Shown here: piece after piece, positions 3,945-25,578 of the stretch
Position numbering within the stretch: the first letter of the stretch is position 1
How the letters are laid out: each line of letters starts with the position of its first letter
Origin: Blastococcus haudaquaticus
Lineage (GTDB): Bacteria > Actinomycetota > Actinomycetes > Mycobacteriales > Geodermatophilaceae
Length of the DNA: 64,000 bases
Direction: 5' to 3'
Assembly: GCF_900230285.1 (NCBI RefSeq)
Contig: NZ_OCNK01000008.1
Span: 1-64,000, forward strand
Position numbers and translations under genes: made by a program
Notes under the pieces: model-generated
What the model was told of the DNA's origin: nothing
The model's database searches: none
What the model saw: only the letters and a program-made list of their open reading frames with translations

Positions 3945-3957
3945 TCCTCGATGCGGG

Positions 3958-3972
3958 TACTTCACCGCTAAG
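3958..3972 (-). promoter_or_regulatory. Shared regulatory motif, copy 1 (upstream of carbamate kinase)
   Basis: Read on the minus strand this is CTTAGCGGTGAAGTA, which differs at one position in 15 from the copy upstream of fdrA. It lies 25-39 nt before the GTG of the carbamate kinase gene. A TAGGGT -10-like box at 3984-3989 stands 7 nt before that GTG, so the motif falls at the -35 region of a likely leaderless promoter. Confidence 0.65.
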
Positions 3973-3996: not shown

Positions 3997-4962
3997 GTGA
4001 CGTCGCACCGTGTGGTGATCGCCCTGGGCGGCAACGCCATGACCGGGGCCGACGGGTCGGCCACGCCCGAGGCGCAGCGGAACGCGATCCGGGAGGCGGC
4101 CGGCCACATCGCCGAGGTCGTCGCGTCCGGCGTCCAGGTGGTCCTGACGCACGGCAACGGGCCCCAGGTGGGCAACCTGCTGGTCAAGAACGAGATGGCG
4201 GCGCACGTCGTCCCCCCCGTCCCGCTCGACTGGAACGTCGCGCAGACCCAGGCGACCATCGCCTTCACGCTCGCCGACGAACTGGACGCGGCCCTCGAGG
4301 CCCGCGGCCTCCCCCAGCGCAGTGCCGGCCTGGTCACCCGCACCCTCGTCGACGTGGACGACCCCGGATTCCGCGAGCCGTCGAAGCCGGTGGGCCGCTT
4401 CCTCCCGCGGGAGGAGGCGGAACGGTTCGTCTCGCTCGGCCAGATCTGGGAGGACCGCGGCGAGAAGGGCTGGCGCCGCGTGGTGGCCAGCCCCGAGCCG
4501 AAGTCCGTCGTCGACTCCCCCGCCATCCACGCCCTCGCGGCGGCCGGCTTCGTCGTCGTCTGCGCCGGCGGCGGCGGGATCCCGGTGGCCGACGACGGCC
4601 GGGACGGCCCGGGCCTGCGCGGCGTCGAGGCCGTCATCGACAAGGACCTCACCGCCGCGATCCTCGCCACCGAGCTCGACGCGGACACCCTGGTGATCGC
4701 CACGGACGTCCCGAACGTCATGGTGGACTTCGGGACGCCGTCCCAGCGGCCGCTCGGCCGGCTGACCGTCGCGGAGATCCGCGAGCACGCCGCCGCCGGG
4801 CAGTTCGCGCGCGGCAGCATGGGCCCCAAGGTCGAGGCCGCCCTCCGTTTCGTCGAGGGTGGAGGCTCCGCAGGCGGACGACGCCGAGCCGTCATCACCT
4901 CCCTCGAGCACATCGCCGACGCCGTCAGTCGTGACGACGCCGGCACCGTCCTGACCCGCTGA
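3997..4962 (+). CDS. arcC: Carbamate kinase
   Basis: 321 aa, slightly longer than the usual 310. Family motifs are VIALGGNAM at the N-terminus, THGNGPQVGNLL (substrate loop), CAGGGGIPV, VIDKDLTAAILA and GSMGPKVEAA. The enzyme interconverts carbamoyl phosphate plus ADP with ATP, CO2 and ammonia. No arginine deiminase genes are present. Instead the next gene, 29 nt on, is barbiturase, and FdrA/YlbE lie 9 kb away with the same upstream motif. I infer that it recovers ATP from carbamoyl phosphate made during ureide breakdown, as AllK does in allantoin degradation. The GTG start follows TAGGGT by 7 nt, so the transcript may be leaderless. Confidence 0.9.
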   Translation: MTSHRVVIALGGNAMTGADGSATPEAQRNAIREAAGHIAEVVASGVQVVLTHGNGPQVGNLLVKNEMAAHVVPPVPLDWNVAQTQATIAFTLADELDAALEARGLPQRSAGLVTRTLVDVDDPGFREPSKPVGRFLPREEAERFVSLGQIWEDRGEKGWRRVVASPEPKSVVDSPAIHALAAAGFVVVCAGGGGIPVADDGRDGPGLRGVEAVIDKDLTAAILATELDADTLVIATDVPNVMVDFGTPSQRPLGRLTVAEIREHAAAGQFARGSMGPKVEAALRFVEGGGSAGGRRRAVITSLEHIADAVSRDDAGTVLTR

Positions 4963-4991: not shown

Positions 4992-6095
4992 GTGCCCGCA
5001 CCTATCGAGGTCCGCAAGGTCCCGCTGCACAACGTCAGTGACGCCTCCGAGCTCGCCAAGCTCATCGACGACGGCGTCATGGAGGCCGACCGGGTCGTCG
5101 CCGTCATCGGCAAGACCGAGGGCAACGGCGGGATCAACGACTACACGCGGATCATCGCCGACCGCGCCTTCCGCGAGGTGCTGCTGGAGAAGGGTTCCCG
5201 GTCCCTCGACGAGGTCAAGCAGATCCCGATCGTCTGGTCCGGCGGCACGGACGGCGTCATCAGCCCGCACGCCACCGTCTTCGCGACGCTGCCCGAGGAC
5301 GCCGTCGAGAAGACCGACGAGCCGCGGCTGACCGTCGGCTACGCGATGAGCGACGTCCTGCTGCCCGAGGACATCGGCCGGCTGGCCATGGTCGAGAAGG
5401 TCGCCGAGGGCGTGAAGAAGGCGATGGAGGCCGCGGGCATCACCGACCCGGCCGACGTCCACTACGTGCAGACCAAGACCCCGCTGCTGACGATCGACAC
5501 CATCCGCGACGCCCGCGAGCGCGGGAAGACGACGTACATGCAGGAGCCGCACGGCTCGATGGACCTGTCGAACGGCACCACGGCGCTCGGCATCGCGGTC
5601 GCCCTCGGCGAGATCGAGATGCCGACGCAGGAGCAGGTCATGCACGACCTATCCCTGTACAGCGCCGTGGCCTCCTGCTCCTCCGGCGTCGAGCTGGACC
5701 GGGCGCAGATCGTCGTCGTCGGCAACGCCCGCGGGCACGGCGGCACCTACCGCGTCGGCCACTCGGTCATGAAGGACGCGCTCGACCAGGACGGCATCTG
5801 GGCCGCGATCCGCGACGCCGGCCTGGAGCTGCCCGAGCGGCCGCACCACACCGACCTGGGCGACCGCCTGGTCAACGTGTTCCTCAAGTGCGAGGCCTCG
5901 CCGGACGGCAAGGTCCGCGGGCGCCGCAACGCGATGCTCGACGACTCCGACGTCTCCTGGCACCGCCAGATCAAGGCGACGGTCGGCGGTGTGACGGCGT
6001 CGGTGACCGGCGACCCGGCCGTCTTCGTGTCGGTGGCCGCGGTGCACCAGGGCCCGTCGGGCGGCGGCCCGGTCGCCGCGATCGTCAAGGCCTAG
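4992..6095 (+). CDS. bar: Barbiturase (cyanuric acid hydrolase/barbiturase ring-opening amidohydrolase)
   Basis: 367 aa, full length for this three-domain family. The Ser-Lys dyad landmarks are present: GKTEGNGG (Lys41), [12 protein letters not shown] (Ser83), the VASCSSGVE segment (Ser230/231) and [17 protein letters not shown] (Ser347 region). The N-terminus and much of the body resemble, as I recall it, Rhodococcus barbiturase more than AtzD/TrzD. Barbiturase hydrolyses barbiturate to ureidomalonate, the second step of oxidative uracil breakdown. It follows carbamate kinase in an apparent operon, with GTG start at 4992 and SD-like AAGGAA at 4981-4986. A hairpin terminator follows. Cyanuric acid hydrolase activity cannot be excluded from sequence alone. 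Confidence 0.88.
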
Positions 6096-13716: not shown

Positions 13717-15138
13717 TCAGGCGGTGCGGGTGGCCTCGGCGAGGGCGGCGAGCGCCTTCTCGAAGCACTCCTGCGGAGGCTGGACCAGCCCGGCGCCGAC
13801 CTGACCGGTGCCGGCGATGCGACCGGCCATCCCGGTGTTGATCTGCGGCAGCCAGCCGGTGCGCGCCACCTTGAGGACGTCGATCCCCGTCGGCGAACCG
13901 CGGAACCCCATGATCGGGATCGCCATCGCGGGGTTCTCCGCGAGCGTCACCTGGTACATCCGCTCGGTGGTGGCCAGCGCGTCTGGGACGGTGCCGCCGA
14001 CGAACCGCACGATCGCCGGCGCGGCGGCCATCGAGAACCCGCCGACGCCGTAGGCCTCCATGATTGCCGAGTCGCCGATGTCGGGGTTGGCGTCGTCCGG
14101 ACCGTAATCACCCAGGAACAGGCCGACCGGGGTGTTGGCCGGGCCGGTGAACCAGCGGTCGCCGGTGCCGGCGGTCTGGATGCCGAACTCGGTGCCGTTG
14201 CGCGACAGCACGGTGACCAGCGACGAGCCGGGGACGTCGCGGGCGGCGTCCATCGCGAGCTTCGCCGTCGGCATGCCCAGGTTGAGGAAGAAGTGCTCGT
14301 TGCCGCCGATGAACTTCAGCACCGCGGCGATGTCGGACGACGGGACGCCCTCCACCGCGACGATCGACGGGGACAGCTCGCGCAGGGTCATCAGCGAGCC
14401 GGCGCGGTTACGGTTGTGCCCCTCGTCGCCCATCTGGAGCATCTGGGCGAGGACGCTCTTCACGTCCAGCGGGTCGTTGCCGGCGTCGATCGAGCCGCGC
14501 ACGGCCTTCTGCAGGATCGGGCCGAGGACGTCGCGCATCCAGACCAGCCGGGTCTGCACCTCGTCGTTGAAGGCGCCCATCCGCAGCACCTTGCCCAGGC
14601 CCTCGTTGAGGTTGCAGAACGCCTGACCGCCGTGGACCGGGTCCTTGAGGCACCACATCCACATCGACGGCGACGTCACGCCGGCCATCGGGCCCACCGT
14701 GCGGTGGTGGTGGCACGGGTCGAGGGTGATCTCGCCGTTCGCCAGGATCCGCTCGGCGTCCTCGACGTCGGTCGCCCAGCCCTCGAAGAGGCAGGCGCCG
14801 ATCAGCGCGCCGCGCATCGGGCCGGACGCGGTGGCCCAGGTGAGCGGCGGCCCGGAGTGCAGCAGCGTGCGGTCGGCGAGGCCGATGACCTCGCGGGCCG
14901 GCCGGACGTCGACCAGCTGGGAACCCGCGGCGAGGATCCGCTCGACGGCGACCCGGTTGGCCGCGTTCCGGCGGGGATCCAGGGCGAGCGCGGCCAGGTC
15001 GGCCGGGTCACCGAAGCCCGGCGGACGCCAGTCGACGTCGTGCACCTCGGCGCCCTGGGCGCGCAGGGCGTCGGAGAAGACGTCGACACCCGCAGCGACG
15101 ACGGCCGGCGGCCCGGAGAGCAGTCCACCCAGAGTCAC
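13717..15138 (-). CDS. ylbE: YlbE/AllG-type DUF1116 protein, predicted carbamoyltransferase subunit
   Basis: 473 aa, full length for DUF1116. Diagnostic stretches are DVDWRPPG, GACLFEGWA, the CHHHRTVGPMAGVTSPSMW block and GNEHFFLNLGMP. In E. coli, YlbE (AllG) works with FdrA (AllF) and YlbF (AllH), reported as oxamate carbamoyltransferase: oxalurate plus phosphate gives oxamate plus carbamoyl phosphate. The GTG start overlaps the fdrA stop by 4 nt (GTGA), so the two are translationally coupled. No DUF2877 (AllH) gene is in the window. Given the linked barbiturase and carbamate kinase, I infer that ureidomalonate, the chemically analogous malonyl-urea, is the substrate. That is a prediction, not a known activity. 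Confidence 0.82.
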   Translation of the reverse strand: MTLGGLLSGPPAVVAAGVDVFSDALRAQGAEVHDVDWRPPGFGDPADLAALALDPRRNAANRVAVERILAAGSQLVDVRPAREVIGLADRTLLHSGPPLTWATASGPMRGALIGACLFEGWATDVEDAERILANGEITLDPCHHHRTVGPMAGVTSPSMWMWCLKDPVHGGQAFCNLNEGLGKVLRMGAFNDEVQTRLVWMRDVLGPILQKAVRGSIDAGNDPLDVKSVLAQMLQMGDEGHNRNRAGSLMTLRELSPSIVAVEGVPSSDIAAVLKFIGGNEHFFLNLGMPTAKLAMDAARDVPGSSLVTVLSRNGTEFGIQTAGTGDRWFTGPANTPVGLFLGDYGPDDANPDIGDSAIMEAYGVGGFSMAAAPAIVRFVGGTVPDALATTERMYQVTLAENPAMAIPIMGFRGSPTGIDVLKVARTGWLPQINTGMAGRIAGTGQVGAGLVQPPQECFEKALAALAEATRTA

Positions 15139-16670
15139 GAAGAAGCTCCCAGCAGGTCGAGGGCGTACCGCGTGGCCGCGGCGTTGGAGGCGAACACGGC
15201 CGCGCCGGCCGCGGCGAGGGCGTCGGCCTGGCGGGACCAGCCCTGCGGGTCACCCTCCGTGCCGACCAGCGCGATGACGACGGGCAGCGAGGCCTGCGCG
15301 CGGGCGGCGGTCAGCGCGGGCACGAGCGCGCCCGCCGGGTCGGGATCGGCGCCGTAGCCGAGGACGACGTCCATCAGCAGCACGGCCGGCTCGCCCGAGG
15401 CCGCTACGTTCGCCAGCGCCTCGAGCCGCAGCGTCGGGTCGATCATCGGGTGCGCGCGGCCCACGGTCAGGGCGTCGTCCCCGAAGTCGATGACCACATG
15501 CCCCGTGGCGGACAGGTCCGTCCCGAGGTCGAGCTCGGGCCGCAGCGGGGTGTTGGAGCGGATGTCGCCGAGTGCCGGGGCAGCCAGCAGCATCGTCTCG
15601 TCGGCGAGCGTGCCGCCGGAGTAGAGGCCCTTGAGCACGGCACCAGGTACGACGGCCTCCGCCGGGCCGGGCCGCGACGGCCAGACCGGGACGTCGAGCC
15701 CCATGTCGGTGAGCAGCCCCTCGACAGCGGCGGTGAGGTCGGGCGTCTCGAGTGACAGGACGGCGGAGCGCACCGGCACCGACAGGCCGTTCCCGAACTG
15801 CTCGACGGCCTGCGCCACCGAGGGCGCGGGGGGCTTGGAGACCAGCAGGATGCGCTCGGTCGCCTCGTCGGCGTCGAGCGCGGCGAGGGCGTCGAGCGTG
15901 GCGAGGCCGCCGACCTCCTCCTTCAGGTCGCGGCCACCGACACCGAGCACGTGCGAGACGCCGACGCCGGCCATATCCAGCAGGCAGGAGATCTGCTGGG
16001 CGCCCGTGCCGGACGCGGCGACCAGGCCGACCGGTCCGGGGCGGACGACGTTGGCGAAGCCGAGCGCGACGCCGGCGACGATCGCCGTCCCGCAGTCGGG
16101 GCCCATGACCAGGACGCCGGCCTCGTGCGCCGCGCGCTTGAGCGCCACCTCGTGCTCGACCGGGACGCCGTCGGAGAAGACCAGCACGCTGCGGCCGGCG
16201 GCGATGGCGTCGGCAGCCTCGGCGACGGCGTACTGACCGGGGACGGAGATGATCGCGAGCGCGGACCCGTCGCCGCCGAGCTCGTCGAGACCGGCGCCGA
16301 TGGTGCGCTGCGGGATGGCCTGGGCCGAGCCGGTGGAACGCTCCCGCGCGGCCAGCGCGGCGTCGACCGCGGCGAGCGCCCCGGCGAGCGCGTCGTCGTC
16401 GTCGGCGCGGATCGCGATGAGCAGCTGCTCCGGGGAGGTGGGCTCCTCCGGGGCGAGGCCCATGTTCGCGGCCAGCTCGAGGTTCAGCGGGGTGGCCATC
16501 GCGACCAGGACCGCGCTGACGCCGTCCGCGGCCGCGACGTCGCGGCTCACCTGCATGAGCTTCACGGAGTCGGCGTAGACGCCGGACCGCAGCGCGACCG
16601 AACGCACTCCGGCCGTGGCGGAAGGTTCTCCCGGGGGTGCTGAGGCGGTCACCTCACCGACCGTACCCAC
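15135..16670 (-). CDS. fdrA: FdrA/AllF-type acyl-CoA-synthetase-like protein, predicted carbamoyltransferase subunit
   Basis: 511 aa; E. coli FdrA is about 555. The CoA-ligase-like fold is visible in VMGPDCGTAIV (190-197), LVAASGTGAQQISCLLD (about 217-232) and LGVGGRDLKEEVGG (243 on). The N-terminal RSGVYADSVKLMQVSRDV block is specific to FdrA. It pairs with YlbE in oxalurate phosphorolysis in the allantoin pathway. Here it starts a two-gene operon facing an NCS2 permease across 177 nt that hold two copies of the shared motif. The GTG at 16670 is taken as the start; GTG 16652 is possible. See YlbE for the predicted reaction. Confidence 0.82.
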   Translation of the reverse strand: MGTVGEVTASAPPGEPSATAGVRSVALRSGVYADSVKLMQVSRDVAAADGVSAVLVAMATPLNLELAANMGLAPEEPTSPEQLLIAIRADDDDALAGALAAVDAALAARERSTGSAQAIPQRTIGAGLDELGGDGSALAIISVPGQYAVAEAADAIAAGRSVLVFSDGVPVEHEVALKRAAHEAGVLVMGPDCGTAIVAGVALGFANVVRPGPVGLVAASGTGAQQISCLLDMAGVGVSHVLGVGGRDLKEEVGGLATLDALAALDADEATERILLVSKPPAPSVAQAVEQFGNGLSVPVRSAVLSLETPDLTAAVEGLLTDMGLDVPVWPSRPGPAEAVVPGAVLKGLYSGGTLADETMLLAAPALGDIRSNTPLRPELDLGTDLSATGHVVIDFGDDALTVGRAHPMIDPTLRLEALANVAASGEPAVLLMDVVLGYGADPDPAGALVPALTAARAQASLPVVIALVGTEGDPQGWSRQADALAAAGAAVFASNAAATRYALDLLGASS

Positions 16671-16676
16671 AGATGT

Positions 16677-16691
16677 CTCAGCGGTGAAGTA
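16677..16691 (+). promoter_or_regulatory. Shared regulatory motif, copy 2 (fdrA side)
   Basis: CTCAGCGGTGAAGTA, one mismatch to copy 1. It ends 6 nt from the fdrA GTG, between the divergent fdrA and permease genes. Relative to fdrA it has the same orientation as copy 1 relative to carbamate kinase (TACTTCACCGCT toward the gene). Confidence 0.65.
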
Positions 16692-16714
16692 TCGGCATCT
16701 ACCTGCAATAACGA

Positions 16715-16729
16715 TTTAGCACTGAGGTA
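16715..16729 (+). promoter_or_regulatory. Shared regulatory motif, copy 3 (permease side)
   Basis: TTTAGCACTGAGGTA. Extended to 19 bases (ATTTAGCACTGAGGTACTT) it differs at one position from copy 4 upstream of coxM. It lies 119 nt before the permease ATG. Confidence 0.65.
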
Positions 16730-16847
16730 CTTCCGCCGGGCGTGTTCTGGTGACACATTGGCCGCTCTCGGTGGAGGCAGGGGGCCAGACAGGGCCCGTT
16801 GTCCCGCACCGATCACGGGTCGCAGGTCAGGTCGAGGAGGCGCTCAG

Positions 16848-18323
16848 ATGGCGTTCAGCTGGAAGCTCTACGGGGACGGCAAGACCCCGCCCCTGGGTGA
16901 GGCGGTGGCCCCGGACGAGCGGCTCTCCTGGCCGCGGACCGTCGGGATCGGCGCCCAGCACGTGGTCGCCATGTTCGGGGCGACCTTCGTCTTCCCGATC
17001 ATCATGGGCCTGGACGCGAACCTCGCGATCATGATGAGCGGCGTCGCGACGATCATCTTCCTGCTCATCGTGAAGGGCCAGGTGCCCAGCTACCTGGGCA
17101 CCAGCGCCGCGTTCGTCGGCGGGGTCGCGGCGATCCGCACCAACGGCGGTGACTCCAGCGACGTCGTCGGCGCCCTGCTGGTGGCCGGCGTCGTCCTGGC
17201 GCTGGTGGGTCTGCTGATCCACTTCTCCGGGCTCGGCCTGATCAACAAGGTGCTGCCGCCGGCCGTCACCGGCGCCGTCGTCATGCTGATCGGCTTCAAC
17301 CTCGCACCGGTCGCGGCGGGCACGTACTGGCCCCAGGACCAGTGGGTCGCGCTGGCGACCATGGCGTTCGTCATCGTCGCCTCGCTGGCGCTGCGCGGCT
17401 TCCTCGCCCGCATCGCCATCCTGCTCGGGCTGGTCTTCGGCTACCTGCTGTCGATCCTGCTCGACGCCACCACCGGGCAGATCACGTCCTTCGACGCCAG
17501 CGTCGGCGACATCACGACGCGCGACCGGATCAACTTCGACCAGGTCGCCGATGCCGACTGGTTCGGCCTGCCCGACTTCACCGCGCCGTCGTTCTCGCTC
17601 AACTTCAGCCTGCTGGTCATCCCCGCCGTCATCGCCCTCGTCGCGGAGAACGTCGGGCACGTCAAGGCCGTGGCCGAGATGACCAAGCGCGACCTCGACC
17701 CGGTCATGGGCCGCGCGGTCTTCGCCGACGGCGTCGGCACCGTCGTCGCCACCGCCGTCGGCGGCTCCCCGACGACGACGTACGCCGAGAACATCGGCGT
17801 CATGGCCGCCACCCGGGTCTACTCGACGGCCGCCTACTACGTGGCCGCGCTGGTCGCGATCCTGCTCGGCCTGATCCCCAAGTTCGGCGCGCTGATCAAC
17901 ATCGTCCCGGGCGGTGTGCTCGGCGGCATCACGGTCGTCCTCTACGGGATGATCGGCCTGCTGGGCGCCAAGATCTGGAAGGAGAACCGGGTCGACTTCG
18001 CCAACCCGATCAACCTCGTGCCGCTCGCGGCCGGGATCATCATCGGTGTCGGCAACGTGACCCTGACCTTCTCCGAGGACTTCTCGCTCAACGGCATCGC
18101 GCTCGGCTCGATCGTCGCGGTCGTCGCCTGGCACGTCGCCCGCGCCCTGGCCCCGGCCGACATGAAGGCCGCCCTGCTGCGCGAGGGCAGCGTGCCGGAG
18201 AGCGGCTCGTCGCTGGGCCACCACGGCGGGCCGGCCGGCGGCCACTCCGACCGCCTGGGTGGGTCCGACCCCTCCTCGGTGGACGAGGTCGGGCGCCCGG
18301 GCATCCCGGGCACCAACCGCTAG
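16848..18323 (+). CDS. NCS2-family uracil/xanthine permease
   Basis: 491 aa from the ATG at 16848, with AGGAGG ending 7 nt upstream; the in-frame extension to 16758 looks non-coding. About 14 hydrophobic segments. VAENVGHVKAV and the SPTTTYAENIGVMAATRVYSTAAYY region are the NCS2 signature, and the second is close to uracil transporters of UraA/RutG type. The first Glu contacts the base in UraA. It imports nucleobases by proton symport. It is divergent from fdrA and upstream of the Mo-hydroxylase genes, matching a role as uracil importer for the pathway. The last ~50 residues are a Gly/Ser-rich tail. Xanthine is the main alternative substrate. Confidence 0.87.
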   Translation: MAFSWKLYGDGKTPPLGEAVAPDERLSWPRTVGIGAQHVVAMFGATFVFPIIMGLDANLAIMMSGVATIIFLLIVKGQVPSYLGTSAAFVGGVAAIRTNGGDSSDVVGALLVAGVVLALVGLLIHFSGLGLINKVLPPAVTGAVVMLIGFNLAPVAAGTYWPQDQWVALATMAFVIVASLALRGFLARIAILLGLVFGYLLSILLDATTGQITSFDASVGDITTRDRINFDQVADADWFGLPDFTAPSFSLNFSLLVIPAVIALVAENVGHVKAVAEMTKRDLDPVMGRAVFADGVGTVVATAVGGSPTTTYAENIGVMAATRVYSTAAYYVAALVAILLGLIPKFGALINIVPGGVLGGITVVLYGMIGLLGAKIWKENRVDFANPINLVPLAAGIIIGVGNVTLTFSEDFSLNGIALGSIVAVVAWHVARALAPADMKAALLREGSVPESGSSLGHHGGPAGGHSDRLGGSDPSSVDEVGRPGIPGTNR

Positions 18324-18433: not shown

Positions 18434-18448
18434 TTTAGCACTGAGATA
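18434..18448 (+). promoter_or_regulatory. Shared regulatory motif, copy 4 (upstream of coxM)
   Basis: TTTAGCACTGAGATA, nearly identical to copy 3 over 19 bases. It lies 71 nt before the GTG of the Mo-hydroxylase medium subunit, downstream of the permease terminator, so it marks a separate promoter. Confidence 0.65.
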
Positions 18449-18518
18449 CTTTCGTCGCCTCCGAGGCGGTGACAGAGTGACCGTTCGCGCACGTCTCACA
18501 CGGAGGTGACCGCAGCCG

Positions 18519-19394
18519 GTGAAGCCCGCACCGTTCCGCTACGCCGATCCCGGCACGCTCGACGAGGCCCTGGCGGTCCTGTCGGCCGAGGGTGAGGGCG
18601 CCAAGGTGCTGGCCGGCGGTCAGTCGCTGCTCCCGCTGCTCTCGATGCGGCTCGCGGCGCCCACCACGCTGGTGGACATCAACCGGGTGCCCGGCCTCGA
18701 CGCCGTCGAGGTCACCGACGACGGCGTGACGGTGGGCGCGCTGGTGCGGCACAACGCGCTGCTGTCCGACGACGCCGCCGCCGGCGTCCAGCCGTTGCTC
18801 GCGCGGGCGACGGCGAACGTCGCCCACCCGGCCATCCGCAACCGGGGCACCACCGTCGGCTCGATCGCGCACGCCGACCCCTCCGGCGAGATGACGTCGG
18901 TCCTGGCCCTCACCGACGGCTCCGTCACCGTCGCCACGCCCTCCGGGAGCTCCGCCGTCGGGTGGCGCGACTTCTTCGTCGGCCCGCTGGAGACCTCGGT
19001 CCACGGGCCCGCCGTCGTCACCTCCGCGTTCTTCCCGGCGCTGCCCGCGCGGTCCGGCACCGCCTTCGCCGAGGTGGCCCGCCGCAAGGGCGACTACGCG
19101 GTCTGCGGCGCCGGCGTCGTCGTCACGCTGGACGCCGGCCGCCGCGTCGAGCGGGTCCGCGCCTCCTACGTCTCGGTGGGCATCACCCCCGAGGTGCACG
19201 ACCTGACCGAGGCCGTCGCCGGCAAGCCGGTGGACAGCGCCGACTGGGCCGCCGCCGGCGCGCTCGCGCGCACCCTGGTCGACCCGGACACCGACATCCA
19301 CGCCAGCGCCGACTACCGGCGCCTGCTGGTCGGCGTCCTGACCGAACGAACTCTTGCTGACGCTGCGGCGGAAGCCGCTGGGAGGGCCGCGTGA
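18519..19394 (+). CDS. coxM: Molybdenum hydroxylase FAD-binding medium subunit (CoxM type)
   Basis: 291 aa, typical length. KVLAGGQSLLPLLSMRLAAP is the first FAD-binding loop, and GTTVGSIAHADPSGEM corresponds to the second (TIGGN/A-H-x-D-P type). The family passes electrons from the Fe-S subunit to quinone or another acceptor through FAD. The GTG start is preceded by ACGGAGGTGACC. The stop overlaps the coxS start by 4 nt (GTGA). It is the first gene of coxM-coxS-coxL-coxG. Confidence 0.87.
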   Translation: MKPAPFRYADPGTLDEALAVLSAEGEGAKVLAGGQSLLPLLSMRLAAPTTLVDINRVPGLDAVEVTDDGVTVGALVRHNALLSDDAAAGVQPLLARATANVAHPAIRNRGTTVGSIAHADPSGEMTSVLALTDGSVTVATPSGSSAVGWRDFFVGPLETSVHGPAVVTSAFFPALPARSGTAFAEVARRKGDYAVCGAGVVVTLDAGRRVERVRASYVSVGITPEVHDLTEAVAGKPVDSADWAAAGALARTLVDPDTDIHASADYRRLLVGVLTERTLADAAAEAAGRAA

Positions 19395-19909
19395 CCGCGT
19401 CTGTCGACACGGAACGGACGATCACCCTCACGGTGAACGGTGTTCCACGTGAAGCCACCGTGCCGGTGCGCCGGCTGCTGTCGGACGCGCTGCGCCACGA
19501 TCTCGGGCTGACCGGCACGCACGTCGGCTGCGAGCACGGGGTCTGCGGGGCGTGCACCGTGCTGGTCGACGGCGACCCGGTGCGGTCCTGCCTGATGCTC
19601 GCCGTCCAGGTGGACGGGCACGAGGTGACCACCGTCGAGGGCCTGGCCCGCGACGACAGCCGCGGCGGCCAGGTGCTGCACCCGGTGCAGGAGGCCTTCC
19701 GCGAGTGCCACGCGCTGCAGTGCGGCTTCTGCACGCCGGGCTTCCTGACGACGATCGCCGCGGGGCTGGAGAAGCGGGACAACGCCGCGGAGCTCACTGA
19801 GGAGGAGGTCGACGACATGGTCGGCGGCAACCTCTGCCGGTGCACGGGCTACGCCAACATCAAGAAGGCCGTGCACCACGCCAACGCCGCGATGCGGGAC
19901 GCCCAGTGA
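19391..19909 (+). CDS. coxS: Molybdenum hydroxylase 2Fe-2S small subunit (CoxS type)
   Basis: 172 aa. Cys ligands for the plant-type cluster are in GCEHGVCGACTVLVDG plus a downstream Cys (VRSCLM). Those for the helical-domain cluster are in QCGFCTPGF and CRCTGY. It carries electrons from the molybdenum centre to the FAD subunit. It overlaps coxM by 4 nt, and coxL follows 40 nt later. Confidence 0.9.
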   Translation: MTASVDTERTITLTVNGVPREATVPVRRLLSDALRHDLGLTGTHVGCEHGVCGACTVLVDGDPVRSCLMLAVQVDGHEVTTVEGLARDDSRGGQVLHPVQEAFRECHALQCGFCTPGFLTTIAAGLEKRDNAAELTEEEVDDMVGGNLCRCTGYANIKKAVHHANAAMRDAQ

Positions 19910-19949: not shown

Positions 19950-22370
19950 ATGACGACGAAGCTGTTCGGCGAGCCGGTCCGCCGGCGCGAGGACGCCCGG
20001 CTGATCGTCGGCAAGGGCCGCTACCTCGACGACATCGGGCACAAGGCGCTTGCGGCGGCGTTCGTGCGGTCGCCGCACGCCCACGCCCGGATCGTCGACA
20101 TCGACGTCGAGGGTGCCCTGGACGTCGAGGGCCTGGTCGCGATCTACACCTACGACGACCTCAACGGCCCGATGGCCGAGCCGCTGCCGGTGCTCATCCC
20201 CCACCCGCAGCTGACCCACCCGCGCACCAACTACCCGCTGGCCCGTGACGTCGTCCGGCACGTCGGCGAGGCCGTGGTCATGGTCATCGCGACGGACCGG
20301 TACGTGGCCGAGGACGCCGCCGAGCGGATCGTCGTCAGCTACGAGGAGCTGCCCGTCGTCGTCGGCGTGGACGCCGCGGCCGAGGCTCGTGCCTCCGTGC
20401 ACGACGACGTCCCGGACAACGTGGCCGCCCGGCACCACCAGGAAACCGGCGACGTCGAGCCGGCGCTGGCCGCCTCACCGCACACGATGAGCTTCACCCA
20501 GTACATCGAGCGAAGCGCCTCCATGCCCATGGAGGGCAAGGGCGTGCACGCGCGCTGGGACGCCGACGACCGGTCGTTGCGGGTCTACTCGAGCACCCAG
20601 GCGTCGACGTCGGTGCGTGCGGCGATCGCGGCGAAGCTGGAGCTGTCGCTGGACAAGGTCGAGGTGGTCGCACCCGACGTCGGCGGCGGCTTCGGCGTGA
20701 AGATCGTGCACCCGTGGCCGGAGGAGCTGCTGGTGCCGATGGCCGCGATCGCGCTGCAGGCCGAGGTGAAGTGGGCCGAGGACCGCCGCGAGCACTTCAT
20801 CTCCTCGGCGCACGAGCGGCAGCAGCGCCAGGACATCACCGTGGGCTACGACGACGAGGGCCGGATCACCGCGCTCGACGTCCACGTGCTCCACGACAAC
20901 GGCGCGTACACGCCCTACGGAATCATCGTCCCGATCATCACCGCGACCCAGCTGGTCGGGCCGTACGTGATCCCGGTGTACCGCGTGCGCGTGGACAGCG
21001 TCTACACGAACACCGTGATCGTGACGCCGTACCGCGGCGCCGGGCGGCCGCAGGCCTGCTACGCGATGGAACGGACGATGGACCGCATCGCCGACGAGCT
21101 CGGTCTCGACCGCTCCGTCGTCCGCGAGCGGAACCTGATCCAGCCCGACCAGTTCCCCTACGACCACCACCTGACGTTCCAGGACGGCCGGCCGGTCATC
21201 TACGACTCGGGCGACTACCCGGGTCTGGTCGACAAGCTGAAGACGCTGGTCGGCTGGGACTCCGTCGACTCGTTGCGGGCGGAGGCCACCGCCCGGGGCA
21301 AGCACCTCGGCATCGGAATGGCGCTGTACGTGGAGGGCACCGGGCCCGGGCCGTACGAGGGCGGGCACGTCCAGGTGCTCGGCAGCGGCAAGGTGCTGGT
21401 GTCGACCGGGCTGACGTCGCAGGGCCAGGGGCACGAGACGGCGTTCGCGCAGATCGTGGCCTCCGAGCTCGGGGTGCCGATCGAGGACATCGAGGTGACC
21501 ACCGGCGACACCCGGCGCTTCGGGTACGCCGTCGGGACCTTCGCGTCGCGGGCCGCGGTGATGAGCGGCAACGCGATCGCGCTGGCCGCGCGCGGTGTGC
21601 GGGAGAAGGCGCTGCGGATCGCGGCCGACGTGCTCGAGGCGTCGCCGGAGGACCTCGAGATCGACGAGGGCCTGGTGCAGGTCAAGGGCGTGCCGGGGAC
21701 CTCCATTCCCCTGCGGACGGTGGCCGTGCTGTCCAACCCGCTGCGCTACGCGTTCGACGAGGCGGCGAAGCAGGCCACCCAGTTCACGACGCACGACGAC
21801 TCGAAGCCGCCGGTGGCCGAAGGCGATGCGCCGGGGCTGGAGCACCGCGACTACTACTCGCCGCTGCGGTCGACGTTCGCCTCGGGCGCGCACGCGGCGA
21901 TCGTGGAGATCGACCCGCAGACGTGGGAGATCGACATCGTGAAGTACGCCGTGGTGCACGACTGCGGCAACGTGGTGAACCCGATGATCGTCGAGGGCCA
22001 GGTGCAGGGCGGCGTCGCGCAGGGCGTGGGCGGCGCGTTGTACGAGCGGATGGTCTACGACGCCGACGGGCAGCTGCAGAACGCCTCGTACATGGACTTC
22101 CTCATGCCGTACTCGAGCGAGGTGCCGGACGTCGTTATCGACCACCAGACGACGCCGTCGCCGCTGAACCCGCTGGGCATCAAGGGCGCCGGCGAGGCCG
22201 GCGTGATCCCGGGGACGGCGGCGATCGCCTCGGCGATCGAGGACGCGGTGGGACGGCGGATCTCGTCGATGCCGATCTCGCCGACCCAGCTGTACGACCT
22301 CGTGCGCAACCCCGATTCGGAGATGACCGCTGTGGCTGCCGGCCGCGCGGGGACTGGAGTGATGGCGTGA
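19950..22370 (+). CDS. Molybdenum hydroxylase large subunit (CoxL form II-like; predicted uracil/pyrimidine dehydrogenase)
   Basis: 806 aa, full length. VGGGFGVK (residues 244-251) and KGAGEAG (catalytic Glu749) are xanthine dehydrogenase-family Mo-pterin motifs. The active-site loop reads PYRGAGRP (360-367) and lacks the AYxCSFR sequence with its copper-binding Cys that defines true CO dehydrogenase (form I). CO oxidation is therefore unlikely; hydroxylation of an N-heterocycle or aldehyde is expected. With a nucleobase permease upstream and a motif shared with barbiturase, uracil-to-barbiturate oxidation is the most economical reading. Xanthine or nicotinate-type substrates remain possible. 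No CoxD/CoxE/XdhC maturation gene is in the window. Confidence 0.85.
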   Translation: MTTKLFGEPVRRREDARLIVGKGRYLDDIGHKALAAAFVRSPHAHARIVDIDVEGALDVEGLVAIYTYDDLNGPMAEPLPVLIPHPQLTHPRTNYPLARDVVRHVGEAVVMVIATDRYVAEDAAERIVVSYEELPVVVGVDAAAEARASVHDDVPDNVAARHHQETGDVEPALAASPHTMSFTQYIERSASMPMEGKGVHARWDADDRSLRVYSSTQASTSVRAAIAAKLELSLDKVEVVAPDVGGGFGVKIVHPWPEELLVPMAAIALQAEVKWAEDRREHFISSAHERQQRQDITVGYDDEGRITALDVHVLHDNGAYTPYGIIVPIITATQLVGPYVIPVYRVRVDSVYTNTVIVTPYRGAGRPQACYAMERTMDRIADELGLDRSVVRERNLIQPDQFPYDHHLTFQDGRPVIYDSGDYPGLVDKLKTLVGWDSVDSLRAEATARGKHLGIGMALYVEGTGPGPYEGGHVQVLGSGKVLVSTGLTSQGQGHETAFAQIVASELGVPIEDIEVTTGDTRRFGYAVGTFASRAAVMSGNAIALAARGVREKALRIAADVLEASPEDLEIDEGLVQVKGVPGTSIPLRTVAVLSNPLRYAFDEAAKQATQFTTHDDSKPPVAEGDAPGLEHRDYYSPLRSTFASGAHAAIVEIDPQTWEIDIVKYAVVHDCGNVVNPMIVEGQVQGGVAQGVGGALYERMVYDADGQLQNASYMDFLMPYSSEVPDVVIDHQTTPSPLNPLGIKGAGEAGVIPGTAAIASAIEDAVGRRISSMPISPTQLYDLVRNPDSEMTAVAAGRAGTGVMA

Positions 22371-23050
22371 ACCTCGACGGCTCGGCAGTTCTGTCCGGCG
22401 ACCCGGAGAAGGTGTGGGCGGTCATCACCGACCCCGCCGTCCTGGCGCGGACGATCCCCGGCTGCGAGACGCTGGAGCAGGTCGGGGACGACGAGTACAA
22501 GATGAACGTCTCCGTGGGCGTCGGCGCGATCCGCGGGACGTACGCGGGCGAGGTGCGGCTGTCGGACCAGAAGAAGCCGTCGTCATACGTGATGCACGCA
22601 TCGGGTGCGGGCGCGCCGGGGAACGCGCGGGCGACCGTGACGATCAACCTGGAGCCGACCGACGGCGGGAAGACGAACCTGACCTACTCGGCCGACGCGG
22701 TGATCGGCGGCCCCGTCGCAGGTGTGGGCCAGCGGATGATCACCGGCGTCGCGAAGCGGATGGCCGGCCAGTTCTTCAAGGCCATCGACGACGAGCTGAC
22801 CGGCAAGGCTGTGCCGGTAGCGGCGGCTCCGTCGGCTGCAGCCGCTCAGACGAGCGACGCCTCACTGGTGGTCGGTGGCGCGCCGATCGCGGCCGCCCCG
22901 ACGGTGTTCGCAGGCAAGGCCAGCGTTCCCGCGGGAACGTCCGGCGACGCCCAAACCCTGCTGCTCGGCGCCCTCGGCGGCGCCGTGCTCACCCTGATCG
23001 GCGTCCTGGTCGGCTACCTGCTGGGCCGTCGCCGGGAGCCGAACACTTAG
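22367..23050 (+). CDS. coxG: CoxG-type SRPBCC protein with C-terminal membrane anchor
   Basis: 227 aa from the GTG at 22367, which overlaps the coxL stop by 4 nt. Residues 1-145 form the CoxG/SRPBCC fold (MNLDGSAVLSGDPEKVWAVITDPAVLARTIPGCE is diagnostic). An Ala-rich linker follows, then a single transmembrane helix (TLLLGALGGAVLTLIGVLVGYLLG) and a basic end. CoxG proteins bring Mo hydroxylases to the membrane, and some bind quinone, giving an electron exit to the respiratory chain. Here that would couple substrate oxidation to respiration. The linker DNA holds the palindrome CGTTCCCGCGGGAACG at 22924-22939. Confidence 0.82.
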   Translation: MNLDGSAVLSGDPEKVWAVITDPAVLARTIPGCETLEQVGDDEYKMNVSVGVGAIRGTYAGEVRLSDQKKPSSYVMHASGAGAPGNARATVTINLEPTDGGKTNLTYSADAVIGGPVAGVGQRMITGVAKRMAGQFFKAIDDELTGKAVPVAAAPSAAAAQTSDASLVVGGAPIAAAPTVFAGKASVPAGTSGDAQTLLLGALGGAVLTLIGVLVGYLLGRRREPNT

Positions 23051-23198: not shown

Positions 23199-23813
23199 AT
23201 GACTCAAGCGCCGCCGAACGGGAACGCTGGCTCGCCCCAGCCGCCGAGCGCAAGCCCCGTGGAGCTCTTGGAACTCCTTGAGCAACGGTCCTACGCGACC
23301 TATAAGGCGCGCTTGCGGGCTTCCAAGCGGCTCATGACGCGCAATAACGCCTGGAACGCATCTCTCATCGCTACGGCCACATCTACAACCATCGCTTCTG
23401 TGGCTCTCCTAGCCAATGACGGCATTTATGGCCCAAACGGCGACACGCTATTTGTATGTCTCGCCGTACTGTCTTTGACTGCTTCACTTGTCACTTCGGG
23501 CCTGAACTACTCCGGCCGCAGTCGTGACATGTTCTCAAATTATCGGCGCATTCAACGACTCTCCGCCGAGGCGGAGCGGGCCAAGCGGACACCAAGCATG
23601 CAAAATTTCGCGACAGTGGCCGAGTTGAACGCGAAGTACGACGAGCTTCTCGATGGATCTGAGAACCACACCGAGGCCGACTACTTCCACGCGAATGGCG
23701 AAGGCAGCAAGCCTGCCTCAGTTCGGCGCGAAAGCCTGCTCTCCTTCTTCCCTTACATTTCCTTGATCATCCCTCTTCTACTACTGCCACCGCTTCTATG
23801 CTGGATGTTCTAA
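23199..23813 (+). CDS. SLATT-domain two-transmembrane effector protein
   Basis: 204 aa. TM helices are at about 53-73 and 83-102, followed by a helical cytoplasmic segment (YSGRSRDMFSNYRRIQRLSAEAERAK) characteristic of SLATT proteins, and a third hydrophobic stretch at 183-203. SLATT domains are predicted pore-forming effectors that accompany nucleotide-signalling and reverse-transcriptase immune systems. The reverse transcriptase gene is 235 nt downstream with a structured RNA between. GGGGAAG precedes the ATG. GC content is visibly lower than in the flanking genes, suggesting horizontal acquisition. The family call rests on topology, motif and neighbourhood and needs a profile search. Confidence 0.72.
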   Translation: MTQAPPNGNAGSPQPPSASPVELLELLEQRSYATYKARLRASKRLMTRNNAWNASLIATATSTTIASVALLANDGIYGPNGDTLFVCLAVLSLTASLVTSGLNYSGRSRDMFSNYRRIQRLSAEAERAKRTPSMQNFATVAELNAKYDELLDGSENHTEADYFHANGEGSKPASVRRESLLSFFPYISLIIPLLLLPPLLCWMF

Positions 23814-23868
23814 GCCCCTGCCATCCCGAGCCAGGTGGTTCAGCTTCAGGCCTGAACAGTGCTAGCGT

Positions 23869-24032
23869 GGGCCATCCCCCAAGAGGGGGTAGGCCTCCTT
23901 CCGATGCGAGGACCGGCTCTCAAGGCCGGTCGTCATCGGGGGTTGTCGTGCGAGCGATGGCCCCGCGTGAAGCACCTTTTCCCAGGTTGGAAGCCGAGCC
24001 GGGCCCGACGCCTAGTCGGGCCCGGCTTCCAA
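23869..24032 (+). ncRNA. Structured non-coding RNA between SLATT and RT genes (candidate RT template/cofactor RNA)
   Basis: By-eye folding gives a closing stem GGGCCATC (23869-23876) with GATGGCCC (23956-23963). It encloses hairpin CCCC-AAGA-GGGG (23877-23888) and a two-part hairpin CCGATG/CATCGG (23901-23906 with 23934-23939) plus GACCGGC/GCCGGTC (23911-23917 with 23925-23931). About 23 nt of unpaired sequence follows, then a long hairpin 23987-24032: two 9-bp helices, a 5-nt bulge (GAGCC) and a 5-nt loop. A TAGCGT -10-like box at 23863-23868 lies just upstream. No ORF of note fits here. Position and structure resemble RNAs that serve defence RTs. Ends are approximate. Confidence 0.65.
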
Positions 24033-24048
24033 CAAGTACGGGGGCGTC

Positions 24049-25578
24049 ATGTGGTGGGAGCTAGAGAAGGATATCCGCGCTTCCGCGACCAAGAAGATCC
24101 GAGAGCACGAGCGCTACAGGAAGCGCGTCATCGACGAAGGGGCACGTCGACTCCGACGGAGCACAGGGTCTCCTTCGCTATCAGCTCCGAACCGTCCTAC
24201 AACTTGGGATGCGAACCCTGCGTTCGACCCCTACCACGTGCGGGCCCGCGCAAAATCAATCAGCCACTCCATAACACAGCGGCTGCGATCCGGTGCATAC
24301 TCACCGCTGGATCCAATCAACTTCTCTGTCCCGAAGCCGGATGGCGGAAAGCGGCTCGTAACTAGCTTCGCTATTGCCGACGAAGTTATTTCCTCCCGCC
24401 TGTATCGATCACTTCTGGACAAGAACCGTCCACTACTGAGCGCCCGGTCTTACGCATATCGTGACGACATTGGCGTGAATGACGCGATCGCGCACATTCA
24501 ATCGGAATGGCGCAGTGAACATCGCGTCTTCGTCGCCGAGTACGACTTTACAAACTTTTTCGACTCGATCAGTCATGATCACATCTGGTCCACCCTAGAA
24601 TCCCTGGGGATCGTGATGACGAGTCTGGAGCGCGTTCTGATACGTGCGTTTTTGGAGGCGTCGACGTCGAGTGGCCATGGAGGGTCGACTCTACGGCGGT
24701 CGGGTGTGCCGCTAGGAACTTCCGTAAGCCTCTTCTTGGCAAATGTGGCAGCAAGCCCCTTAGACCGAGCGCTTGAACGGCTGGGAGTGGGCTTCGTACG
24801 ATACGCGGACGACACGGTTATCTGGAGTCGCGATTACGCCGCCATCTGCCGGGCCGTGGATGAACTCCATCGAGTATCCGCGAACATCGGATCACCAATC
24901 AATCAGTCTAAGAGCAACGGTGTTCGGCTCCTGGTTTCCCCGTCAACCGAGCGAGCGGAGATCAACTTCACGTCAGAAGTTGAGTACTTGGGCCACGCTC
25001 TAGGACTCCAGTCGATTCGCATGAGAGATCGAGCCGAAGCGCAGGTACGCCGACACATCACTGGCCTACTATTCAACAATCTTCTGCGCGAGCCAAAGGC
25101 GGGGACTCAAGACTGGACTCGCGTCGGCAGGCTCGACCGGGATTACGTCACATACATCTGGCAGCTTCGCCGCTATCTCTACGGCCACTTGACGGAGAAC
25201 GAAGTGCGACGAGTCAATCGTGGCGCTCCTCCTCCCCGAAATCTGACAGGCGTGCTCTCTCGCTTCCCATTGATCAACGATGACCCGTCGCTGCGCGAGC
25301 TTGATCGCTGGATCACGACCCAGACGCTCTTAGCCTTGCGGAAGAGAGCGGCGCTTCTAACTCGGACGCTGACTTTTGGGTCACCTCCCGTCCCTTGGAC
25401 CATGACACGGGAGAGGCTCATCGATTTGACAACGAAATCCGCCAGGACCGGCGATACCATCGACCTTCGGATGCCAAGTGCGCTGAGAATGGCATCGGTG
25501 GTGCGACGGGCGGTCCGGACCCATGGCACGCGTGTCGTAGGGTCCGCCACGCCCCTGTACGGGGATACCAGTCTTTAG
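24049..25578 (+). CDS. Defence-type reverse transcriptase (UG/DRT-like)
   Basis: 509 aa. RT motifs in order: SVPKPDGGKR (93-102), AEYDFTNFFDSI (163-174, Asp166), SGVPLGTSVSLFLANV (218-233), RYADDTVIW (251-259, catalytic YADD), NQSKSNG (285-291) and VEYLGHAL (311-318). The C-terminal ~190 residues are alpha-helical with no maturase, HNH or endonuclease motif, so it is not an obvious group II intron RT. The partner SLATT gene and intervening structured RNA match defence-associated RT systems, in particular the RT-plus-SLATT type. The ATG at 24049 follows GGGGG by 4 nt and stands 16 nt past the RNA's last hairpin. GC is low for this genome. Confidence 0.85.
   Translation: MWWELEKDIRASATKKIREHERYRKRVIDEGARRLRRSTGSPSLSAPNRPTTWDANPAFDPYHVRARAKSISHSITQRLRSGAYSPLDPINFSVPKPDGGKRLVTSFAIADEVISSRLYRSLLDKNRPLLSARSYAYRDDIGVNDAIAHIQSEWRSEHRVFVAEYDFTNFFDSISHDHIWSTLESLGIVMTSLERVLIRAFLEASTSSGHGGSTLRRSGVPLGTSVSLFLANVAASPLDRALERLGVGFVRYADDTVIWSRDYAAICRAVDELHRVSANIGSPINQSKSNGVRLLVSPSTERAEINFTSEVEYLGHALGLQSIRMRDRAEAQVRRHITGLLFNNLLREPKAGTQDWTRVGRLDRDYVTYIWQLRRYLYGHLTENEVRRVNRGAPPPRNLTGVLSRFPLINDDPSLRELDRWITTQTLLALRKRAALLTRTLTFGSPPVPWTMTRERLIDLTTKSARTGDTIDLRMPSALRMASVVRRAVRTHGTRVVGSATPLYGDTSL

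Follow-up and report, generated by a model that had tools for sequence, protein, structure and literature searches.

A predicted AllFG ureidomalonate carbamoyltransferase linked to barbiturase in Blastococcus haudaquaticus

Introduction

What does a carbamoyltransferase of the allantoin pathway do in a locus that carries no allantoin genes? The question is raised by allF (fdrA) and allG (ylbE), two genes in a 64,000-nucleotide stretch of the Blastococcus haudaquaticus genome (contig NZ_OCNK01000008.1, positions 1 to 64,000; hereafter the window). In CanOE (PMC3364942), ylbF, fdrA and ylbE were ranked as candidate genes of oxamate carbamoyltransferase, with fdrA taken rather for a CoA-ligase. 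All three AllFGH subunits are reported to be required in Escherichia coli (PMC11326118), and allFGH are described beside biuret/triuret genes in nitrifiers (PMC12625717). The initial annotation of the window read the pair as a ureidomalonate carbamoyltransferase that lacks an AllH partner and is co-regulated with a carbamate kinase.

We consider it very likely that AllFG works in a barbiturate route, and likely, judging from sequence, that it splits ureidomalonate with phosphate, with or without AllH. In the proposed route, an NCS2 permease would import uracil, the CoxMSL molybdenum hydroxylase would oxidise it to barbiturate and barbiturase would open the ring to give ureidomalonate. AllFG, with AllH probably supplied in trans from another contig (C4), would use phosphate to convert ureidomalonate to malonamate and carbamoyl phosphate, that is, it would run in the phosphorolytic direction. 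Carbamate kinase would then turn carbamoyl phosphate and ADP into ATP, ammonia and CO2, and an amidase would convert malonamate to malonate. Like oxalurate, ureidomalonate is a carboxylated N-acylurea, and a shift of AllFG from oxalurate to ureidomalonate would be a small chemical step.

Results

Both reading frames exist as initially annotated, overlap by 4 bp and match AllG and FdrA-type domains (Table 1); AllG is read here as a subunit of the predicted carbamoyltransferase. Comparing intergenic stretches, we found a 14-bp pattern, YAGCRSTGARRTAY, common to the promoters of carbamate kinase, allF, the permease and coxM. The 4.5 Mb genome holds four exact matches, all at these promoters. This uniqueness is partly by construction, because the motif was derived from them, and the independent test is its conservation across the family. 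Our family sample comprised 112 Geodermatophilaceae genomes (G-numbers denote genomes, L-numbers loci). The motif is present in 89 of them: in 88 of 96 with a gene of the AtzD family, to which barbiturase belongs, versus 1 of 16 without (p 5e-12, uncorrected for kinship). Exact sites number 239 across the family, versus eight for the reversed pattern. Motif places were listed up to genome G064 and, in later genomes, come from fetched stretches only. The 20 exact sites in 20 fetched family stretches all lie before kinase, allF/permease, coxM or hyuA (caprolactamase-like hydantoinase A), and eight of the 20 stretches have no site. At L071, the motif pair touches the first bases of the predicted kinase frame, whose start is probably placed too early. 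The shared pattern and its family-wide conservation support the co-regulation of carbamate kinase with allFG that was initially proposed.

At up to one mismatch, the B. haudaquaticus genome holds 20 matches, the four exact ones included. Many of the 16 one-mismatch matches are attributable to chance, because the reversed control gives seven. Near-matches were taken as leads only where a reverse-strand near-match overlaps them 6 bp away. One such dyad-like copy (C9:129313; L025 12314) precedes an ABC transporter gene of the Bmp family (PF02608), which may belong to the regulon as well. Others precede hyuA (C10:75661) and an NmrA-like gene (C2:1342176; L129 16177-16196), and one lies between genes for a MatC_N dicarboxylate carrier and a class III CoA-transferase (C6:561633; L131 8634-8653), which is noteworthy given that the predicted route ends in malonate. 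All of these are leads only. Relatives of the NmrA-like gene (33-65% identity) stand in or beside the clusters L081, L086, L097, L182 and L217, with a short piece in L088, and occur in just two of the best 80 AllG loci introduced below.

We assessed the identity of the AtzD-family protein from solved structures and specificity residues. Among solved structures, 5HWE (Barbiturase) comes closest with 649 bits, and the best cyanuric acid hydrolase scores 334 bits. Bar, which constitutes Group VI of the AtzD family, is reported to carry Asn194, His324, Lys328, Val348 and Ser349 where AtzD has Arg, Thr, Arg, Gly and Gly, with Ser or Ala at the fifth specificity position (PMC3758960). The window protein has N194, H324, K328, V348 and A349, the Bar signature at all five positions. 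We rejected a role as cyanuric acid hydrolase, since the specificity residues and PDB scores speak for barbiturase. Among 31 AtzD-family proteins examined, 28 have NHKV followed by A, S or G (G in six), two have RTRGG and one has N-GGG. The three without NHKV, together with three that have it (L081-L083), come from genomes without an AllG match. A further 27 proteins from named genomes all have NHKVA or NHKVS.

AllG and the AtzD-family gene occur together. In the family, the latter is present in 88 of 88 AllG-positive and 8 of 24 AllG-negative genomes; three of these eight (G037, G068, G071) are 74-84% complete and five (G073, G074, G090, G093, G099) 92-99%. A phylum sample of 346 genomes, drawn evenly, contains AllG in 43, the AtzD family in 24 and both in 19 (p 3e-15, again uncorrected for kinship). 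The two genes share a contig, at most 45 kb apart, in 14 of the 19 and lie on different contigs of draft assemblies in five. Five phylum genomes have an AtzD-family gene without AllG, and 0 of the three read have the Bar signature (G292 and G303 were left out).

We also scanned named genomes with an alignment of window-type AllG and used the best 80 of at least 565 confirmed matches. These include Blastococcus, Geodermatophilus, Modestobacter, Nocardioides, Janibacter, Phycicoccus, Actinomadura and others; among the matches listed, Blastococcus and Geodermatophilus are closest to the window AllG. Barbiturase lies inside 15 of the 80 loci. Outside Geodermatophilaceae, whole genomes were searched for 40 of the 60 loci (the remaining 20 are mostly metagenome-assembled genomes and short contigs), and 39 of the 40 have an AtzD-family gene. 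The sole exception, Brevibacterium sp. CCUG 69071 (L217), has CoxMSL, AllG, AllH, HyuAB and kinase. Carbamate kinase adjoins barbiturase in 8 of 12 fetched barbiturase loci of named genomes, and this neighbourhood makes best sense if carbamoyl phosphate forms. AllF was scored missing in four of the 80 loci, a probable artefact of giving each stop-to-stop frame only the label of its best match.

Distant actinobacteria assemble these genes in one place. Four loci (L085, L086, L090, L094) hold a single cluster with barbiturase, a permease ~30% identical to the window NCS2, carbamate kinase, AllH, AllF, AllG and CoxM-S-L-G, sometimes with other genes between, and L087 has the same gene set until the stretch ends within CoxM. 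An amidase-signature gene follows CoxG in L085 and L088, and the genes behind CoxG in L086 and L094 resemble it by their first residues. PucR-like genes adjoin barbiturase on the opposite strand in L085, L087 and others. Variants of the cluster are found at L088, L089, L091, L092, L093 and L095, with no kinase within the stretch at L092 and L093. Pyrimidine genes recur in the relatives' clusters. L091 encodes a cytidine/deoxycytidylate-deaminase-family protein (PF00383; nearest NCBIfam TadA, below cut-off) and a cytosine/purine-family permease (PF02133), and L094 and L095 encode amidohydrolases with cytosine deaminase among the best models, below cut-off. At L090, an AllB-like gene split in two frames (best model dihydropyrimidinase, below cut-off) stands beside a nitrilase-family gene. 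Loci from the family (G066, G072) and the class (L096, L098) have the order AllG-AllF-AllH, divergent PucR, permease and CoxMSL, with kinase-barbiturase elsewhere.

In a tree of 50 AllG proteins, a branch with support 97/93 sets the 28 that come from barbiturase genomes apart, and two HyuAB-linked AllG from genomes without a barbiturase match join this clade (80/83). The AllG of E. coli and of L078, L079, L100 and L102 fall outside it in this tree, which is rooted at its midpoint only and has the E. coli row on a long branch. In the latter four loci (L078 5067-9653, L079 2700-8212, L100 8026-12607, L102 5086-10937), AllF, AllG and carbamate kinase lie beside a biuret-hydrolase-like cysteine hydrolase, which in L078 scores 273.8 bits, below the cut-off of 370. 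The residues A104, S105, R245, V377, R426 and L451 (window numbering) are nearly fixed in the 28 rows of the barbiturase clade and rare in the 20 others, which makes them candidate specificity positions. Paralogues from L080 and L113 form a deep separate branch; these genes (L080 4978-6276 and 13976-15274, and L113) adjoin genes that resemble glutamine synthetase by eye, and no labelled AllF stands next to them. Together, regulon, synteny, co-occurrence and the AllG tree give strong support to the initial proposal of a predicted carbamoyl-phosphate-forming FdrA-YlbE enzyme that would act on the barbiturase product and be coupled to carbamate kinase.

The pair might instead be an ordinary oxamate carbamoyltransferase acting on allantoin-derived oxalurate. 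Its members share their families with E. coli AllFG (47% and 40% identity), and the genome has uricase, allantoinase and allantoicase. The initial statement that no allantoin genes are seen holds within the window, where we found no genes like E. coli AllB, AllC, AllD, AllE or AllH (blastp, ORFs of at least 90 aa, matches above 45 bits), but not elsewhere in the genome, which encodes a complete aerobic route. The genes for uricase, HIUase and OHCU decarboxylase are grouped on contig C2, and a second group on C6 consists of those for urease alpha, allantoinase (557 bits, cut-off 358) and allantoicase. A complete allantoin pathway under the same motif had been named beforehand as refuting the proposal, and was rejected: the pathway is present, but the exact motif has no copy at the C2 or C6 allantoin genes. 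One copy with one mismatch precedes the NmrA-like gene, at ~4 kb from the gene for uricase, and the C6 stretch has three copies with two mismatches. Because its genes sit on C2 and C6 without the exact motif, the aerobic allantoin route as encoded needs no AllFG. The allantoin genes are on other contigs, those on C6 adjoin urease, none of the best 80 AllG loci has an AllB/AllC-like gene above 80 bits, and AllG tracks the barbiturase gene. We regard a role on oxalurate as highly improbable.

The claim that the pair lacks an AllH partner did not survive a genome-wide search. A single AllH (DUF2877) gene lies on contig C4 (C4:106091-106402; E 5.4e-25, above the Pfam cut-off, in a 371-aa frame), which rules out that the genome has no AllH; in the window, none was found. 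The C4 gene is divergent from a PucR-type gene, so labelled on the basis of weak matches to models of PmfR, AdeR and CdaR, and shares its locus with HisE and HisG; this PucR is one candidate regulator of the motif genes. In G066, a HisE-HisG pair is followed by AllG, AllF and AllH and then by PucR, permease, CoxL and HyuAB. Because that HisE-HisG locus holds AllG-AllF-AllH, the AllH-PucR pair on C4 resembles a remnant left after the rest had moved. No solved structure related to AllH was found at E 0.01.

Whether AllFG uses this AllH was weighed from its distribution and conservation. We lean slightly towards the C4 protein being the third subunit of the AllFG enzyme, acting in trans. It keeps 30 of the 32 positions conserved among 15 AllFG-linked AllH, and AllH shares the AllG locus in 55 of the 60 best-80 loci outside Geodermatophilaceae (0 of 20 within) and lies beside AllF in G066 and G072. 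These observations, with the HisE-HisG locus of G066, speak against a two-subunit AllFG that would carry out the same reaction without AllH and leave the C4 protein to another job with PucR. Such an arrangement would fit the presence of AllH in 86 of 88 AllG-positive and 22 of 24 AllG-negative family genomes (p 0.20), an independence that weighs against a simple partner in trans. It would also fit the 27-31 of 32 conserved positions kept by AllH in five AllG-negative genomes, and the lack of any motif copy at zero or one mismatch on contig C4, with a single two-mismatch copy in L002. In E. coli, allFG without allH is reported to have restored 7% of wild-type oxamate (PMC11326118). We consider the two-subunit enzyme doubtful, and because AllH persists in genomes without AllG, the C4 AllH is a candidate subunit of AllFG.

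Several observations weigh against the ureidomalonate route as proposed. The NCBIfam cyanuric acid amidohydrolase model passes on the window barbiturase (474 bits, cut-off 360). No amidase is among the exact-motif genes of this genome, and a search of the genome for a pathway-specific malonamate amidase gave eight amidase matches, the best of which (43% identity, C7:42465) is not diagnostic. A urea-releasing ureidomalonase would not be wasteful here, because the genome has urease. HyuAB accompanies some clusters in a role that the proposed route does not explain. Finally, G090, G093 and G099 (L081-L083) retain a Bar-type barbiturase together with permease and CoxMSLG but have neither AllG nor an adjacent kinase, so there must be a different way past ureidomalonate. 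The loss of AllG and kinase in these three genomes is probably one event, and the absence of a kinase next to barbiturase from the same AllG-less genomes favours the proposed coupling. Their clusters run barbiturase-permease-CoxMSLG-HyuA, and AllH is retained elsewhere in the genomes.

HyuAB accompanies CoxMSL and AllFG in L101, L103 and L217, and is also found in L081, L069 and L097; B. haudaquaticus has its own copy at C10:75681. L101 and L103 have the order CoxMSL-HyuAB-AllF-AllG, and neither of their genomes (G143, G268) counts as AtzD-family-positive. HyuAB is possibly an ATP-dependent stand-in for barbiturase or an enzyme for 5-methylbarbiturate. This raises the prospect that a ureidomalonase hydrolyses ureidomalonate to malonate and urea while AllFG acts on another ureide, such as the HyuAB product of 5-methylbarbiturate or of another oxidised ring. 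The recurrence of HyuAB, its combination with CoxMSL and AllG in L101, L103 and L217 without an AtzD-family match in the genome, and the lack of AllG in G090, G093 and G099 would suit that account. Set against it, HyuA is found in two and HyuB in three of the best 80 loci, compared with an AtzD-family gene in 39 of 40 genomes searched, and carbamate kinase adjoins barbiturase in the eight fetched loci noted above. We therefore judge action on another ureide improbable and retain ureidomalonate as the predicted substrate.

The features of the window are collected in Table 1. Permease and coxM-S-L-G are divergent from allF, whose start may lie at 16607, and the kinase-barbiturase pair is 7.6 kb from allFG, with intervening genes that appear unrelated (one rpsD-like, by eye). 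Some model scores fall short: AllF has 391.5 bits with NCBIfam PRK06091 (cut-off 433), carbamate kinase 337.6 bits with TIGR00746 (cut-off 358), and the permease 380.7 bits with its best model, RutG, far under the cut-off of 758. Genes were called with a simple codon-position G+C scorer, which yields some wrong starts and spurious ORFs. Several fetched loci, L003 and L015 among them, did not enter the analysis. Directly behind coxG (23199-25578, + strand) lie genes for a SLATT_5 protein and a reverse transcriptase that scores 569.7 bits with the Drt9 model, separated by a 235-bp gap; judged by these matches, the pair is a predicted DRT9-type defence system.

Table 1. Features of the proposed regulon in the window
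Feature	Position	Strand	Basis
AllG (YlbE, DUF1116), 473 aa	13717..15138	-	PF06545 E 1.4e-89, above cut-off; 47% identity to E. coli AllG; relative in PDB 3CLQ
AllF (FdrA), up to 511 aa	15135..16670	-	CoA_binding and Ligase_CoA above cut-off; 40% identity to E. coli AllF; E. coli FdrA structure 3DMY
Motif copy before carbamate kinase-barbiturase	3957..3970	-	pattern match
Motif copy before allFG	16679..16692	+	pattern match
Motif copy before permease	16717..16730	+	pattern match
Motif copy before coxM	18436..18449	+	pattern match
Carbamate kinase	3997..4962	+	AA_kinase E 5e-32; PRK12352 291 bits, cut-off 266; 40% identity to E. coli AllK
Barbiturase (AtzD/TrzD family)	4992..6095	+	PF09663 E 2.2e-146; 29 bp behind carbamate kinase
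NCS2 nucleobase permease	16848..18323	+	PF00860 E 6.6e-79; superfamily model ncs2 above cut-off
CoxM-like FAD subunit, molybdenum hydroxylase	18519..19394	+	PF00941, PF03450
CoxS-like 2Fe-2S subunit	19391..19909	+	PF01799, PF00111
CoxL-like molybdenum subunit, candidate uracil dehydrogenase	19950..22370	+	MoCoBD_1/2; NF040766 'group 5' 1459.7 bits
CoxG-like protein	22367..23050	+	PF06240

Discussion

The window system resembles E. coli AllFGH with AllK (PMC11326118) in its AllF and AllG families, a carbamate kinase in the regulon, a carboxylated N-acylurea as expected substrate and an AllH gene in the genome. It differs in standing in an actinobacterial pyrimidine context rather than an anaerobic allantoin operon, in a motif common to barbiturase, permease and molybdenum hydroxylase, in its unlinked AllH and in the separate clade of its AllG. 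With the oxidative pyrimidine pathway as described in PMC3758960 (after Soong 2001, 2002), it has in common a barbiturase of Bar signature, and a molybdenum hydroxylase and a nucleobase permease for the steps expected upstream of it. Unlike that pathway, in which ureidomalonase hydrolyses ureidomalonate to malonate and urea, the window system is predicted to use phosphorolysis and carbamate kinase at this step. AllFGH of nitrifiers, as reported in PMC12625717, likewise occur with carbamate kinase outside enterobacterial allantoin operons; those genes are linked to biuret-type hydrolases, and the similar clusters L078, L079, L100 and L102 fall outside the barbiturase clade.

Among the literature matches listed, no title or abstract linked AllFGH to barbiturase or ureidomalonate, most subscription papers lying outside the coverage, and the same matches offered no usable uracil dehydrogenase or ureidomalonase gene for comparison. 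To our knowledge, ureidomalonase has been described as a purified enzyme only, with no gene sequence assigned.

On balance, it seems probable that many actinobacteria (Geodermatophilaceae, Nocardioides, Actinomadura, Janibacter and others) have an undescribed, ATP-conserving oxidative uracil route in which an AllFGH-type ureidomalonate carbamoyltransferase and carbamate kinase replace ureidomalonase, with a variant in which ATP-dependent HyuAB replaces barbiturase. If this is true, genes can be offered for the step after barbiturase. AllFGH, whose assayed activity in the publications covered concerns oxalurate and oxamate, would gain a second natural substrate pair, ureidomalonate and malonamate. 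In many actinobacterial genomes, FdrA ('acyl-CoA synthetase'), DUF1116 and CoxL-type genes would receive corrected annotations. For the organism, the predicted gain would be one ATP for each uracil ring, compared with the release of urea in the described route.

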